Shown here piece after piece: positions 7,544-36,031 of a DNA stretch of 64,000 bases. The notes beneath the pieces are model-generated. The model saw only the letters and a program-made list of their open reading frames with translations. It ran no database searches and was not told the origin of the DNA. Made by a program: the position numbers and the translations under genes. Every line of letters begins with the position of its first letter. Positions within the stretch are counted from its first letter, which is position 1. This DNA is from Corynebacterium diphtheriae (GTDB lineage Bacteria > Actinomycetota > Actinomycetes > Mycobacteriales > Mycobacteriaceae). The stretch lies in the NCBI RefSeq assembly GCF_001457455.1, contig NZ_LN831026.1, positions 2,046,001-2,110,000 on the forward strand, read 5' to 3'.

Positions 7544-8251
7544 ATGCGCATTGCCAACTGGAACGTGAACTCCGCCCGGGCGCGAGTAGACCGAATACAG
7601 GACTTCCTCGAACGCCACGACATTGACGTCCTTGCCATGCAAGAAACCAAATGCCGCGACGACCAGTTCCCCGAATTCAAAGGCTACGAAGCCGCCCACT
7701 TTGGCATCAACCAATGGAACGGCGTAGCCATCCTCTCCCGAGTAGGCATTGACGACGTCCTCACCAGCTTCGGGCAACCCGACTACGAAGAATTCGAACC
7801 ACGTTCCATCGGCGCAATCTGCGGCGGCGTGCGCGTGTGGAGCCTCTACATTCCCAACGGCCGCGAAATCGCCCACCCCCACTACGACTACAAACTGCGC
7901 TGGCTCTACGCCCTCCAACACTATGGCGTCACCGGCGACACCGTCTGGTGCGGCGACTTCAACATCGCCCCCACCGACAACGACGTCTGGGACATCGACT
8001 TCTTCCAAGGAAAAACCCACGTCACCGAACCAGAACGCCAAGCCTTCGAAGCACTGACCGACATCATGCCGATCACCTCCCCCGAGGGCTACACCTACTG
8101 GGACTACACCGCTGGCCGGTTCCCCAAAAACCAAGGAATGCGCATCGACTTCCAGCTCTCCAACATGACCCCCACCGGCGGATTCATTGACGTTGAAGAG
8201 CGCAAAGGCAAGGGGGCTTCCGATCACGCCCCAGTGGTGGTGGACTATTGA
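7544..8251 (+). CDS. xthA: Exodeoxyribonuclease III
   Basis: This AP endonuclease / 3'-5' exonuclease of base-excision repair belongs to the EEP superfamily. Hallmarks are RIANWNVNSARAR at the N-terminus, MQETKCRDDQFP (catalytic Glu), WCGDFNIAPTDNDVWD (Asp and Asn in the active site), GMRIDFQLSN, and the terminal GASDHAPVVVDY with the catalytic Asp-His. At 235 residues it is shorter than the E. coli enzyme (268). The ATG at 7544 is preferred because the N-terminal strand motif begins there and a -10 box lies 6 nt upstream. Its stop overlaps the start of cls (TTGA). Confidence 0.92.
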   Translation: MRIANWNVNSARARVDRIQDFLERHDIDVLAMQETKCRDDQFPEFKGYEAAHFGINQWNGVAILSRVGIDDVLTSFGQPDYEEFEPRSIGAICGGVRVWSLYIPNGREIAHPHYDYKLRWLYALQHYGVTGDTVWCGDFNIAPTDNDVWDIDFFQGKTHVTEPERQAFEALTDIMPITSPEGYTYWDYTAGRFPKNQGMRIDFQLSNMTPTGGFIDVEERKGKGASDHAPVVVDY

Positions 8252-9681
8252 TAGATTGGCAAACAGCTGGCCTGATCATCGACTACGCCATCAAAATCGT
8301 AGCCATCGGATTCGTCCCTGAAGGCCGTCGTCCCTCCAGCTCCACCGCATGGCTCCTCGCCATTTTGTTGCTCCCCTTCGTAGGCCTACCCCTCTTCTTG
8401 CTGATGGGCAGCCCTTACATCAACCGGCGTCGCCACGACGTTCAACGCCGCGCCTTCCAAATGATCAGGGAACGCCAATCCCACGTACCCGACTACCCGC
8501 CAGACACCGTCCAAAGCCCCGAGCTGACCTCCATGATCCGCATGAACCGTCGGCTCACCGCTATGACGGCCACCACTGGATCAGTCAAGCTACATTCCGA
8601 CTACGACGAAACCATCCAAGCGATGGCCGATGCCGTAGACCAAGCCCGCGACTACGTCCACGTACAGATCTACATCGTCGCTTGGGACGACACTACCGAC
8701 GTGTTCTTCCGAGCACTTGAACGCGCAGTCCAACGAGGCGTAGAAGTCCGCCTCCTCTTCGACCAAGTAGGCAGCTGGAAATACCCAGGCTACCGCCGCC
8801 TCGGCAAACGCCTCACCGCCATCGGAGTGGACTTCCACCTCATGCTGCCCCTGCAGCCCTTCCGCTGGCGCTTCCGCCGCCCCGACCTGCGCAATCACCG
8901 CAAGCTACTCATTATCGACGGCCAACGCGGCTTCATCGGCTCCCAAAACATGATTGCCTCGCATTACACCCCACGCAATCGCTCCAAGGGCCGTCATTGG
9001 GTTGACGTGATGGTCGAGCTCGAAGGTCCCATCGTGGCCTCCATGAACACCGTCTTTGTTGTCGACTGGTCCCAAGAAAGCCACATCGTCCCAGAATTCG
9101 AAGTACCCCCAGCCGACCACGGCGACGTAATGCAGATCGTCCCCTCCGGCCCAGGTTTTAGCACCGAACCAAACCTCCGGCTGTTCAACGAGATGATCCA
9201 CCACGCCAAAAACCAGCTGATCATGTGCAGCCCTTACTTCATTCCCGACGAATCCATGCTCGAAGCAGTCACCTCCGCCTGCTACCGTGGAGTCCGCGTA
9301 GAACTCCTCGTCAGTGAACAAGCCGACCAATTTGTTGTTGATCACGCTCAGTCCAGCTATTATCAGACGCTTCTCGAAGCCGGCGTACACATCTACCGCT
9401 ACCACGCCCCCGCCGTGCTCCACAGCAAGTTCCTCATCGCAGACCCCCACGGCGTGGCCGTCTCTGTGATGGGTTCCTCCAACATGGACATGCGCAGCTT
9501 CGGCCTCAACTACGAAGTCTCCCTCATGACGCTCCAAGGCCAACTCACCCACCTGCTTTACGAGCTAGCCGAAACCTACAAAGAAAACTCCACCGAGCTC
9601 ACCCTCGAAGAATGGAACCAGCGCGGATTCGTCCGCCGCTACGTGGACAACATCATGAAACTGACCTCAGCGCTGCAATAA
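8248..9681 (+). CDS. cls: Cardiolipin synthase (phospholipase D type)
   Basis: This 477-residue membrane enzyme joins phosphatidylglycerol units into cardiolipin. Two hydrophobic helices occupy the first about 60 residues. Both PLD catalytic HxKx4D motifs are present: HRKLLIIDGQRGFIGSQN and HSKFLIADPHGVAVSVMGSSN. The first is followed by a typical SKGRHWVDVMVELEGP stretch. The start is TTG at 8248, overlapping the xthA stop by 4 bp, so translation is likely coupled. A G-rich stretch (GGTGGTGG) just upstream could bind the ribosome. The length is normal for bacterial Cls. Confidence 0.92.
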   Translation: MIDWQTAGLIIDYAIKIVAIGFVPEGRRPSSSTAWLLAILLLPFVGLPLFLLMGSPYINRRRHDVQRRAFQMIRERQSHVPDYPPDTVQSPELTSMIRMNRRLTAMTATTGSVKLHSDYDETIQAMADAVDQARDYVHVQIYIVAWDDTTDVFFRALERAVQRGVEVRLLFDQVGSWKYPGYRRLGKRLTAIGVDFHLMLPLQPFRWRFRRPDLRNHRKLLIIDGQRGFIGSQNMIASHYTPRNRSKGRHWVDVMVELEGPIVASMNTVFVVDWSQESHIVPEFEVPPADHGDVMQIVPSGPGFSTEPNLRLFNEMIHHAKNQLIMCSPYFIPDESMLEAVTSACYRGVRVELLVSEQADQFVVDHAQSSYYQTLLEAGVHIYRYHAPAVLHSKFLIADPHGVAVSVMGSSNMDMRSFGLNYEVSLMTLQGQLTHLLYELAETYKENSTELTLEEWNQRGFVRRYVDNIMKLTSALQ

Positions 9682-31505: not shown

Positions 31506-31534
31506 TTGCGCACATGTTCGTGAAGTTGTACTAT
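31506..31534 (+). promoter_or_regulatory. Promoter of the DUF3800 leader RNA
   Basis: TTGCGC (31506-31511) and TACTAT (31529-31534) are 17 bp apart, a standard sigma-A promoter. Transcription should start near 31541, about 104 nt before the DUF3800 start codon and immediately before the structured leader. Confidence 0.6.
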
Positions 31535-31540
31535 CGCCTA

Positions 31541-31626
31541 TGTGAGCCAGGGTTGAGCGCAAGCAAGAAAGCCCCGGGCAGCAACTCCAAGGACCCCAAT
31601 GCTTCGCATGAGGGTCCTTGCGCTTT
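31541..31626 (+). ncRNA. Structured leader RNA upstream of DUF3800 gene
   Basis: The transcript predicted from 31541 can fold compactly. GGGTTG (31550-31555) pairs with CAACTC (31582-31587), enclosing a GCCCCGGGC region. A second, strong hairpin CAAGGACCC / GGGTCCTTG (31588-31596 with 31612-31620) contains an inner ATGC/GCAT stem with a UUC loop. It is followed by CGCTTTTAAA, a possible weak terminator. Conserved RNAs upstream of DUF3800 genes have been described by comparative genomics as the DUF3800 RNA motifs. I infer that this is a member or relative; the covariance needed to prove it cannot be tested here. Confidence 0.55.
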
Positions 31627-31644
31627 TAAAAATACGGGGGGATC

Positions 31645-32445
31645 ATGCTACTTGCATATATTGATGAAATTGGCAGTACTGGCGCATTCATACATCCAAA
31701 TCACAATCGTTTCAGTGATAGTCCAGCATTCGGCTATGGCGGGTTTATAATTCCAGAGGAATCCGCACGAGAGTTCGGCTCTTATTTTGCAGAACGTAAA
31801 AAGATCTTTTTCCGCAATGAAATCCCCAACAACATAGATCCTGGTCGTTGGGAAAAGAAAGGATCAGATCTACTATTTGCTTTAGCCATCAATGAAAGAC
31901 CACAAAACCTTCGACTACTCGGCTCTTTGATTTCGAAACTCAGAAAACTTGATGGCCACCTCTTCTATTACGCAGAAGAAAAACCCATTGGCACTCCGAA
32001 AGCAACAAACTGCGGCGCTACTGAGTTTAGGGATCGCGAGGAAACAGCTATGTACGCACACATTCTAGGACGAGCCTCGGAGCATCAAGAAATGCGTCGT
32101 ATCGTCGAACCTCCAATGCACATCGATAGCCAGCTATCCACAAATATTCAGTTTGCCGACTGGATATGTTCCCTTGCTAAGCGGGCAATCGAATATCAAT
32201 TAGTAGAAGACTCGCGTTATAGCTGGGTTCCAACAGCGGAAGCGCTAACCCCAACAAGAGGATCTTTTACATATGAGTCAAAACTAAGGCTTTATCACCG
32301 TGCTATCGACGATTTAAATCATTCAAGTATTCTCAGACCTACCAGACCGCTTTTTAATTCAAAAATTAATCAGACACTCGACGAAGAAAATAGGAGAAAA
32401 CTCGAAAAAGTCCGAGCTGCGACAATTAAAGAAGCAAATAATTAA
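31645..32445 (+). CDS. DUF3800-domain protein
   Basis: This 266-residue protein starts LLAYIDEIGSTGAF, matching the YIDESG opening of DUF3800, an RNase H-like fold. A later IQFADWICSLAKRAIEY matches the conserved helix with the family's second acidic residue, and LDGHLFYYAEE sits in the middle. Ile replaces the usual Ser in the first motif; both Asp and Glu are kept. DUF3800 genes are frequent in defence islands, and a nuclease role is suspected. The ATG follows a GGGGGGAT ribosome-binding site. Codon use is AT-richer than in core genes, which suggests acquisition. Confidence 0.82.
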   Translation: MLLAYIDEIGSTGAFIHPNHNRFSDSPAFGYGGFIIPEESAREFGSYFAERKKIFFRNEIPNNIDPGRWEKKGSDLLFALAINERPQNLRLLGSLISKLRKLDGHLFYYAEEKPIGTPKATNCGATEFRDREETAMYAHILGRASEHQEMRRIVEPPMHIDSQLSTNIQFADWICSLAKRAIEYQLVEDSRYSWVPTAEALTPTRGSFTYESKLRLYHRAIDDLNHSSILRPTRPLFNSKINQTLDEENRRKLEKVRAATIKEANN

Positions 32446-32733: not shown

Positions 32734-33846
32734 ATGAAGAGTTACGAGGCGACAGAGATGCTCAGCGATCTCGCATCCCAGCAGTGGGGACTGTTTACCT
32801 CGGCGCAGGCAAAAGATAGTGGTGTCGATCTTCCGTCTCTACGCCGATTGGAAAAACGCGGCGTTTTTACCCGCGTTCGACACGGGGTCTATGCGAGTAC
32901 GACGACTGTATTGTCGACTGAATTAGAGCTCAAAGCCCAGTGGCTTTCCCTACAGCCGAATCTCATGGCAGCTGAGCGCATTAGCGATCCTTCATTAGTT
33001 GCTGACGCTGTAGTTTCTCACACTACGGCCGCTGAAGTATGGGAGATAGGGGATCTCTGGCCCGACGGTATCCACTTTACGGTCAATCGCCGTAGACGAA
33101 GCAGGCAGACAGACGTTCAGTTTCACCGCGCCGATCTCGCCGATTCAGACTGGGTTGTTCACCCTGCATCGGGCCTTCCTATAACCACTGTGCCCCGTAC
33201 CATCTTGGATCTAGCACAATCTGGACATGAGCCAGACCACTTGCTCCATTTGGTCGCCGATGCAGGAAGGAAATACTTACTGACCGAGCAGGAATTGCTC
33301 GACTCTTTTTCTGGCCATGAAGATTCTTTCGGGCTCGACCAAGGAGACAGATCCGGGCTTAAAGAACTAGTTGACGAATGCTTCATTGACACGAAGACTG
33401 CCCAGCAAACTCGCCTATTGGTAGAAGAAGCAATGCGCCCGCTCCAAGAGCAACTAGAAGCGATAATAAAACCACTCACGCAAAGTCTTTCCTGGAAAAA
33501 TGCCATGCAGGCTCCACTTCAGCAACACTTGGCGCAATTAATCTCACCGATACCATCAGCTATGCAGGTACCAGAAATGACTGTGTTTTCTGAGCTGGCA
33601 GAGACGATGAAGAAAACAGCCAGTCTTCCAAACATTTCAAAAAATATGTGGTCTGAAATCTATCCCCCCGAAACACTCTCGTCCGTTCTTTCGACAAGCC
33701 TTCCGCGTACGCAAGTGTCACCTCCTGAAAAACAACGAGAAAGTACCGAGACTAATGAATCAAATTCCGAAGCTAAAAAAGACGCACGGCCAAATCGCCA
33801 ACGCTTTGAAGAAGGAAGCGAAAACACTCAACAAGAACCCCAATGA
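32734..33846 (+). CDS. AbiEi-type antitoxin / autorepressor
   Basis: This 370-residue protein has an N-terminal winged-helix domain (QWGLFTSAQAKDSGVDLPSLRRLEKRGVFTRVRHGVYA, about 17-53), the standard opening of AbiEi antitoxins, then the AbiEi C-terminal domain (SHTTAAEVWEIGDLWPDGIHFTV; PITTVPRTILDLAQSG). The last about 150 residues are a low-complexity helical and Ser/Glu-rich extension beyond the usual AbiEi length, ending in a charged tail whose gene portion overlaps the toxin gene. Type IV antitoxins oppose their toxin without direct binding in the classic case, and repress the operon. Direct repeats upstream are probable operators. Confidence 0.82.
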   Translation: MKSYEATEMLSDLASQQWGLFTSAQAKDSGVDLPSLRRLEKRGVFTRVRHGVYASTTTVLSTELELKAQWLSLQPNLMAAERISDPSLVADAVVSHTTAAEVWEIGDLWPDGIHFTVNRRRRSRQTDVQFHRADLADSDWVVHPASGLPITTVPRTILDLAQSGHEPDHLLHLVADAGRKYLLTEQELLDSFSGHEDSFGLDQGDRSGLKELVDECFIDTKTAQQTRLLVEEAMRPLQEQLEAIIKPLTQSLSWKNAMQAPLQQHLAQLISPIPSAMQVPEMTVFSELAETMKKTASLPNISKNMWSEIYPPETLSSVLSTSLPRTQVSPPEKQRESTETNESNSEAKKDARPNRQRFEEGSENTQQEPQ

Positions 33847-34681
33847 CGTGTACAACCAATTCTTCCGAGAAGTCTTTCTACATGAGCTAATGAGACAGCA
33901 GAACGGATGGGTACTCAAAGGGGGAACCAATATCTACTGCCGCATCCCTGGGGCTAGACAGACTAAAGATCTGGACCTCTACCGACGAGATGACCCCACC
34001 TCATCAACAGGAGCTGCCGAATCTCTCGTGTCAGCAATGAACGGTTACAAAATAGGCCCCTATATTTTTCACGTCATACACCCTCGACAATCTGGAGGTG
34101 TAGGCACGGTAGATAGTGAACGCATCGACGTAACAGTTATCCATGGCATAAACAATCGACTTGTCTCCTTCGGGGTAGACGTAAGCGGTGACCTTGAAGT
34201 AACTGGCACTGTAGAACCTGTGACTGTAGCAACAAGCTATAAGGTGCATACGGAATTTCTACCGCAAAGGTTCAAAGTGTATTCGTATCCTGTGGCTAGC
34301 CAGATTGCAGACAAAATCTGCGCCATGTATGAGCGTCACGGAAATACTCCACCTGGTAGAGCATCTACTCGTTACCACGACCTCTACGATGTAGCACTGA
34401 TGGCTAGGGAGTTAACCGTGAGCGCCTTTGACCTTCGTTCTGCGCTAGATACGCAATGCCGAGTGCGCAATATGTCTCTGCCAAACCATCTCACTATTCC
34501 GGATGAAAGCTGGAAAGACCAATACCCCATCAAAGCGAGGAATTTTGGAGATGAACAGTGGGGACTAACGGAACTAGACGAAGCACTAAGAGTAGCTGGA
34601 TTACTCATTAACCCTATCCTGAACAGAGAATTTAAAGAATCTGACCGAGCATGGAATTGCACAGCACTACTGTGGGAATAG
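33755..34681 (+). CDS. AbiEii-type nucleotidyltransferase toxin
   Basis: This 308-residue protein has the DUF1814/AbiEii nucleotidyltransferase core: WVLKGGTNIYC (Lys55-Gly-Gly-Thr58) and TKDLDLYRRD (Asp72, Asp74 of the DxD motif). Later come QIADKICAMYERH (the K/D motif) and RYHDLYDVALMARE. Relatives in M. tuberculosis (MenT toxins) add nucleotides to tRNA 3' ends and block growth; phage-triggered abortive infection is the classic AbiE role. The gene overlaps the antitoxin gene by 92 bp in another frame, longer than usual, so toxin translation is tied to the antitoxin message. Codon use is AT-rich, like that of the neighbour DUF3800. Confidence 0.85.
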   Translation: MNQIPKLKKTHGQIANALKKEAKTLNKNPNDVYNQFFREVFLHELMRQQNGWVLKGGTNIYCRIPGARQTKDLDLYRRDDPTSSTGAAESLVSAMNGYKIGPYIFHVIHPRQSGGVGTVDSERIDVTVIHGINNRLVSFGVDVSGDLEVTGTVEPVTVATSYKVHTEFLPQRFKVYSYPVASQIADKICAMYERHGNTPPGRASTRYHDLYDVALMARELTVSAFDLRSALDTQCRVRNMSLPNHLTIPDESWKDQYPIKARNFGDEQWGLTELDEALRVAGLLINPILNREFKESDRAWNCTALLWE

Positions 34682-34876: not shown

Positions 34877-36031
34877 TGAGGTTACCCTCGTGTAGTGGAC
34901 ACCTTGTTTGTACGGATCGTGTGTCCGTAGGAGAGGATGTTCATTGTGAATCAACCGCGTAAGAAGTTCACGCCGGAGTATCGGCGTGAAGCGGCGAATT
35001 TGGTGATCGAATCGGATCGCCCTATCGCGTATGTGGCCAAGGAAATCGGTGTTTCCGCGGGCTTGCTAGGCAAGTGGGTGAAAAACGAGCGGCAACGCCG
35101 AGGGTCATCCGACAGGATGAGCGAGGCTGATCTTCGCGCAGAAATTCTTCGCCTGCGCCGCAAACTGGCTGAAGCCAAGATCGACAACGAGTTTTGTCAA
35201 AAGCTGCTGCTTTCTTCGCTGCGAAGCAACACAAACGGAAAAGTTCGAGCTGATACGGCAGGAAAAAACGAACTACAACATCAAACGCATGGCACGCCTG
35301 TTAAAAATCTCCCGGTCCGGCTACTACAAGTGGCCCCATACCCAGGACCAACAAGCAGCCGGCAACGACGAGCGTGAGGCCTACATGGCAGAGGTTGACC
35401 ACAAGATCAGGCAGATCTTCAACGATTCCGAGTGCGTCTACAGCTCCCCACGGATTACTGCGGAGCTTGCTTGCCGCTACCGGATCACTTTAAACCGCAA
35501 GACCGTGGCCAAAAGAATGCGTTTGATGGGGTTGGAGGGGATCTCGCCGCGAATGTTCGCCCCGGTGAAGGCTGGTTGTATCTGTGCGTCGTACGAGACG
35601 GTCATTCACGCCGCGTGCTAGGTTGGGCCATGGACAGCGTCCACAACACTGTTCTCGTGGAGCGTGCGTTGCGGATGGCGTACACGCTGCGCAGCGGCGG
35701 TGCTGACGTGTGGTCTTCCACGCTGACCGCGGCGCGCAGTTTACGAGTCGGCCGCACCGAGGTGTGCTTCGACAATGCGATGGCCGAGTCGTTTTGGTCG
35801 ACGCTGAAAACCGAGTTTTACAACCGTCGACGCTTCGCCACCCGCGATGAGGCAAAAAGGCCGTGGCCTGGTGGATCGAAGTGATCTACAACCGGAAACG
35901 TCGGCACTCAGCACTCGGTATGCAAAGCCCTGTCGCCTTCGAAAACCAGATTAACCACCACAACCAAAAATCAACCGCTGCCTAACCTGCAGGTAGCTCC
36001 ACTACGTGTCCACGATTTGCGGGCAACCCCA
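34877..36031 (+). mobile_element. Degenerate IS3-family element
   Basis: The ends are imperfect inverted repeats (TGAGGTTACCC at 34877; complement of TGGGGTTGCCC ending at 36031). The element encodes an orfA-like helix-turn-helix protein (from 34937: EYRREAANLVIESDRPIAYVAKEIGVS) that loses frame near 35200, where one T seems missing before AAAGCTGCTGC. Its orfB (about 35240-35985) has lost sequence near 35565 and again near 35720, leaving fragments such as MARLLKISRSGYYKW, CFDNAMAESFW and the final ALGMQSPVAFE-like tail. It cannot transpose on its own. The flanks carry no matching target duplication. Confidence 0.8.
34937..35985 (+). pseudogene. IS3-family transposase orfA/orfB, frameshifted and internally deleted
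   Basis: These are the remains of both transposase frames of the element at 34877-36031. The orfA part is good up to KIDNEF, then shifts frame. The orfB part keeps the HTH_21 region (CVYSSPRITAELACRYRITLN) and the last catalytic block (NAMAESFWSTLKTEFY), but the middle of the rve core with the first Asp is missing and the second is out of frame. Confidence 0.75.

Follow-up and report, generated by a model that had tools for sequence, protein, structure and literature searches.

The DUF3800 gene of the window (the whole stretch of 64,000 nucleotides that was analysed) is preceded by a structured RNA which is outside every Rfam family, and whose point of interest is that it also lives without its gene, on chromosomes and in prophages. 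We propose with moderate confidence, on the basis of sequence comparisons, that this RNA is a type III-like antitoxin for a DUF3800 nuclease of the RNase H fold, and that its orphan copies may act in trans, those of the phages as decoys. All positions below are on the forward strand.

The RNA extends from 31542, its predicted 5' end, to 31624. Its lowest-energy fold (−34.7 kcal/mol, z −2.4) is the same structure as that deduced from alignments built without structure (MAFFT); the fold signal of the entire leader up to 31644 is weaker (z −0.75). The first domain, P1 (31542–31582), appears both in the alignments and in the energy fold as a compound stem, 31542–31554/31570–31582, whose pairings are 31542–31543/31581–31582, 31546–31548/31577–31579 and 31550–31554/31570–31574; the pair 31554/31570 and an inner GC-GCAA-GC hairpin (31557–31564) come from the energy fold alone. 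Then comes the mostly single-stranded linker CAACUCC (31582–31588), whose first base closes P1 and whose last base closes P2, and which is near-invariant among partnered RNAs and among solo and phage RNAs. P2 (31588–31620) is a hairpin of 9 bp, 31588–31596/31612–31620, in which the pairing is kept and the sequence varies. The leader 3' of P2 is not conserved.

Both helices are backed by compensatory changes in two alignments, as expected from the preliminary description of this locus, which had predicted a two-helix RNA ending just ahead of the DUF3800 gene. In type A, the sequence type of the window RNA (16 sequences), 99.3% of the P1 cells are paired and two-sided changes occur in 5 of 9 pairs. 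The predicted 9-bp hairpin is P2, and the test for compensatory changes at 31588–31620 is positive in type A (7 of 8 pairs with two-sided changes) and in type B (9 of 12). Taking the two helices together, the figures are 12 of 17 pairs in type A and 15 of 22 in type B (14 sequences); none of 500 shuffles did as well in either type, and all slid controls were also exceeded. The second predicted helix, an outer stem of 6 bp, fares less well: if GCGCAAG/CTTGCGC (31557–31563/31617–31623) was meant, the relatives give it no support (70% of the cells pair, which 65 of 500 shuffles equal), and the second helix is P1.

The predicted promoter consists of a −35 element, TTGCGC (31506–31511), and a −10 element, TACTAT (31529–31534), both read from the sequence and separated by 17 nt; the −10 element is 7 nt upstream of the first base of the RNA. 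A plain consensus promoter scan did not call the window promoter. The argument in its favor is positional: TANNNT starts 12–14 nt upstream of the conserved first base in 53 of 55 RNA loci (type A 14/16, B 14/14, C 7/7, D 3/3, solo 15/15), compared to 17 of 2200 background positions further upstream, and TTG starts at −36 or −37 in 45 of the 55, these loci being kin, so that the counts are not independent. L004 (whose RNA is identical to that of L005), L027 (a near copy of L026), L028 (in which the gene start is missing) and the loci retrieved later are outside this set. The position of TANNNT suggests that the transcript starts at the conserved first base. Thus, the elements that had been described directly ahead of the RNA are present, and their position is kept among the RNA loci.

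Rfam contains several DUF3800 families, which are conserved structured RNAs found upstream of DUF3800 genes. These motifs reportedly come from a survey of 224 candidate RNAs, and we know of no role that has been established for them since their description. They include DUF3800-IX (RF02968) and DUF3800-I (RF02969), according to the entries named in PMC11701678. The window RNA is like them in that it is a conserved structure adjoining DUF3800 genes, but the identity that had been envisaged is not borne out: the Rfam covariance models match neither the window RNA nor 31 related loci (21 scanned at E-value thresholds and 12 at gathering thresholds, 2 of them in both), and unlike those motifs the window-type RNA also occurs without a gene, including in prophages.

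Upstream of the relatives of this DUF3800 gene, we found an RNA of 70–100 nt with a common layout and four sequence types: type A in Corynebacterium, type B mostly in other Actinomycetes, types C and D in front of further Corynebacterium DUF3800 clades. The model R1 was built from type-B RNAs alone, without types A, C and D or phage RNAs, which makes it an independent test. It matches the window RNA (E 2.9e-5 in the genome search, 9.7e-7 in the loci test) and, at the expected places, one prophage RNA (1.9e-7), five C-type RNAs (1.1e-6 to 2.8e-4) and, weakly, three D-type RNAs (E 0.0036 to 0.24). Since a model of type B finds the others, types A, B, C and D look like one RNA family, with weak support for D. 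Two further models, R2 and R3, include some of the sequences that they later find, and the RNA searches across the genus were run with more stringent filters, at the cost of weak matches. A class-wide search with R1 matched 25 of 394 genomes, and only two matches are better than 8e-5: that of G588 (1.6e-9), whose type-B RNA is itself part of R1, and that of the window genome (2.9e-5). The other 23 were treated as probable chance matches and left unused, because two of them (L084 and L087) resemble tRNA by eye.

The association of this RNA with its DUF3800 clade is tight. In Corynebacterium (201 genomes, 37 with a match), the RNA is present at 38 of 44 clade loci or pieces. This count includes G002, where some 1.5 kb separate the gene from the RNA upstream; its D-type loci are supported by weak scores of the models (E 8e-5 to 0.24) together with what is visible in the sequence, and the G032 pieces could belong to one gene spread over two contigs. 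The six loci without RNA (G145, both G032 pieces, the second of G067, the third of G060 and the second of G142) are all either fragmentary or changed in the DE motif. The RNA is also found at 11 of 11 DUF3800 loci in other actinobacterial records, and at all 17 named DUF3800 loci, of which 11 are outside Corynebacterium (loci L031–L034, L035 and L040 are on the same contigs as G057, G196, G136, G060, G624 and G129). In this clade, a complete nuclease without RNA was never seen, and RNA without nuclease is common. Before four distant DUF3800 genes of Corynebacterium (G025, G074, G186 and G142), detected by the Pfam model only, no RNA of this family could be recognized (best E 0.04), so that the pairing is the rule of the clade and not of all DUF3800 genes.

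Some of these loci call for a remark. In G002 (L159), a remnant of the 3' end of the D-type RNA still adjoins DUF3800, and it seems that an insertion split the RNA from its gene. The distant DUF3800 genes of L170 (G074) and L171 (G186) encode the motifs YVDESA and FVDEAG, are not accompanied by an RNA of this family and may have other partners. At L006, L013, L014, L020, L028, L030, L035 and L044, there are tRNA genes no more than about 1.5 kb away from DUF3800 or its RNA, and these may mark integration sites.

The DUF3800 gene of the window (31645–32445), with a probable ribosome-binding site GGGGGG at 31636–31641, encodes a protein of 266 amino acids whose sole Pfam family is PF12686 (E 1.6e-11, 45.6 bits for a cut-off of 21), and which is internally deleted. 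The in-frame loss of 37 residues has its junction at 32049–32050 and corresponds to residues 136–172 of the relative P0002; these residues are present in all 18 aligned relatives. The lost segment holds the core strand 154–159 with the invariant D159, and the invariant E163 (numbering of the P0002 model), so the conserved acidic core is incomplete in the window copy. For lack of this strand and of its invariant aspartate, the window nuclease is probably dead, while the RNA and its promoter appear intact. The best protein match, P0001, also from C. diphtheriae, is identical at 263 of 266 aligned residues. The motif YIDEIG, which had been singled out as unusual, is the normal motif of the clade, its second isoleucine being invariant in 19 aligned sequences.

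The protein is recognized by none of the PADLOC and NCBIfam models and does not match the ToxN/CptN/TenpN toxin family, DUF3800 being its only Pfam match; profile comparison did not relate its sequence to RNase HII. When proteins of the class were searched with the alignment A1 at E 1e-20, one genome besides that of the window was returned, five candidates per genome having been scored among the matches listed. Regarding the neighborhood, which had been described as a defence island, genes for AbiEi/AbiEii, a type IV toxin–antitoxin system, indeed lie directly downstream of the DUF3800 gene (32734–34681), followed by a HTH_Tnp_1 transposase ORF at 34937. Outside the window, the same genome contains a second DUF3800 gene (L051, G000:C1:420884–421621) with a C-type RNA in front, whose usual start position reads ATA. 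It may be that both DUF3800 genes of this genome are impaired, while both RNAs look intact.

The survival of the RNA next to a damaged gene is not a peculiarity of the window. With model R3 at E 0.001, we found 37 RNA copies in 34 of 242 Corynebacterium genomes: 14 are followed by an intact DUF3800 gene (including G057, whose match stops at profile position 276 of 303), 6 by a broken one, and 17 by none, meaning no DUF3800 within the 1.8–10 kb of downstream DNA. The broken genes are those of G000 (the window), G066, G129, G142, G612 and G633, some of which, in draft genomes, may be sequencing errors. Two of the 17 solo matches are weak, that of G033 (34.6 bits, adjacent to an integrase) and that of G053 (33.4 bits), which has no −10 box and is doubtful. 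PF12686 was not found in 8 of the 13 RNA-bearing Corynebacterium genomes tested. A comparison of G180 with G159 is informative: the flanks are 92% and 84% identical, DUF3800 is lost in G180 and the RNA is kept. The RNAs of G025 and G060 are 82–87% identical to those of G180/G159 and the flanking stretches 68–75%, with the exception of a neighboring stretch of about 1.6 kb that is 85% identical to G180. Among the solo copies, we also observed two tandem RNAs 235 bp apart in L116 (G195, around 8001–8314), in a genome where PF12686 has no match, and, in L114 (G115), an RNA at 8001–8083 with an AAA_21 ATPase gene starting 293 nt past its first base.

In eight distinct prophage or viral copies (genomes G074, G085, G100, G109, G186 and G033, viral contigs L107 and L108; L109 duplicates the G186 prophage, and L123 that of G100), a solo RNA with a −10 box adjoins a gene for a tyrosine integrase. 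The RNA starts 12–14 nt from the likely start codon of this divergent gene; in G100 the reading frame of the integrase stays open beyond the start of the RNA. Seven of the integrases have PF00589, and the eighth, cut by a contig end, has two other integrase domains. In an alignment of six of these copies (all but G100 and G033), identity is 99.1% for the P1 core with the linker, 75.5% for the integrase start and 54.8% for P2. The two phage RNAs that were folded keep both helices (G109, z −2.7; L108, z −1.4, with 20 of 200 shuffles as good). In G186, one neighbor is a Peptidase_M78 gene, and repressor-like genes were judged by eye. DUF3800 itself travels with its RNA on viral contig L124, beside an integrase and a Dam-type methylase. 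Patterns of B- and C-type RNAs were not found in viral contigs, and BLAST of phages and plasmids with the RNA gave no additional solo RNA. We also considered the idea that the RNA is a phage attachment site, and rejected it: phage IME1320_01 lacks the RNA, and its annotated attP-L is at the distal end of the integrase gene.

The following mechanism would account for these observations. The window locus would be a worn two-part module made of one promoter, one 80-nt RNA and then the DUF3800 nuclease. The RNA would be released from the DUF3800 mRNA, or accumulate beside it, and would hold the nuclease inactive by binding it with P1 and the linker CAACUCC. If the RNA disappeared, as might happen after shut-off of host transcription by a phage, the freed nuclease would damage nucleic acid and growth would stop. 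The system would then be of the type III-like toxin–antitoxin or abortive infection kind, and its RNA unit would be single, without repeats. Orphan RNAs, on chromosomes or in prophages, would disarm an incoming or resident DUF3800 in trans. That the nuclease is lost before the RNA, and that phages have captured the RNA, is as expected of an antitoxin. The toxin–antitoxin-like pairing already put forward is thus the best reading, whereas there is no positive evidence for the RNA-guided pair proposed along with it.

Like what we propose here, RNA antitoxins encoded ahead of their toxins have been described. The order of the window locus, an RNA and then the gene of a candidate toxin behind one predicted promoter, is that of type III systems. 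In ToxIN, CptIN and TenpIN, the RNA gene is upstream of the toxin gene, but the antitoxin units are repeated, a terminator precedes the toxin gene and the toxin belongs to another family. The window copy has no tandem RNA repeats, and no conserved terminator separates RNA and gene in the relatives (a T-run follows 4 of 16 type-A RNAs, including that of the window, and 1 of 14 type-B RNAs); both features are usual in type III systems, and their absence counts against this assignment. In AvcID, which PMC10511110 terms type III, there is likewise no predicted terminator between the RNA antitoxin and the toxin gene, but the toxin is a deoxycytidylate deaminase. AbiF–RCd22 of C. difficile is close in its layout, one promoter, a motif RNA of about 100 nt (Rfam abiF motif RF03085) and then a toxic protein, and its RNA, which has a known conserved motif, is an antitoxin in cis and in trans according to PMC12373285; AbiF differs in being linked to the ancestors of Cas13 rather than having an RNase H fold, and RCd22 in having two motif copies and a terminator. 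A phage mimic of an RNA antitoxin is conceivable as well, since PMC5086642 describes pseudo-ToxI, an RNA mimic of the ToxIN antitoxin made by escape phages, and, for protein systems, PMC7192599 describes orphan antitoxins and the anti-addiction role proposed for them.

Another hypothesis, which we consider rather unlikely, is that DUF3800 works as a ribonucleoprotein, perhaps RNA-guided, in which the RNA serves as activating cofactor or scaffold, and that the orphans are decoys forming dead complexes. DUF3800 proteins are reported, in PMC10910872 and PMC12669027, as accessories with an RNase H fold in some CRISPR loci, and the solo RNAs of the phages resemble the Racr RNA anti-CRISPRs, which, as PMC10651486 presents them, are prophage-borne solitary RNAs mimicking a host defence RNA, with the difference that they target CRISPR–Cas. 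Decoys would arise equally from a cofactor and from an antitoxin. On the other hand, no guide-like segment is seen in the alignments (what varies is P2, which stays paired, and the leader past P2 is unconserved), and a cofactor offers no added reason for the RNA to outlast a broken nuclease.

It is less probable still that the RNA has a separate partner in the host or the phage, for instance as an integrase switch, and that DUF3800 joined it later. In five of the six aligned prophage copies (L107, L108 and L118–L120), the ribosome-binding site of the integrase, on the opposite strand, immediately adjoins the base at which the RNA begins, so that RNA and integrase leader are probably antisense to each other, and a regulatory role restricted to phages is possible. 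However, phage IME1320_01 has a related integrase region without RNA, and 11 of the 17 solo copies of Corynebacterium have no integrase gene directly beside them. Last, that the RNA is a purely cis-acting leader controlling translation or termination of the DUF3800 mRNA, as its location and a few terminator-like copies might suggest, is very improbable, since a leader would be found only before its gene whereas 17 of 37 copies have no downstream DUF3800, and since the prophage copies are conserved beside an integrase.

We found no report of solo DUF3800 RNAs in a literature search that covered few subscription journals, nor any literature match for an RNase H-fold protein with a non-coding RNA. 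That the RNA persists where its gene is missing, and that it is conserved in prophages, bears on the role of DUF3800 RNAs, since both facts argue for action in trans. Antitoxin RNAs may thus serve a widespread toxin family with the RNase H fold, and temperate phages may carry counter-defence decoys outside the CRISPR context, a generalization that we advance only tentatively; if it is true, this would be a new class of toxin and a phage counter-measure made of RNA.
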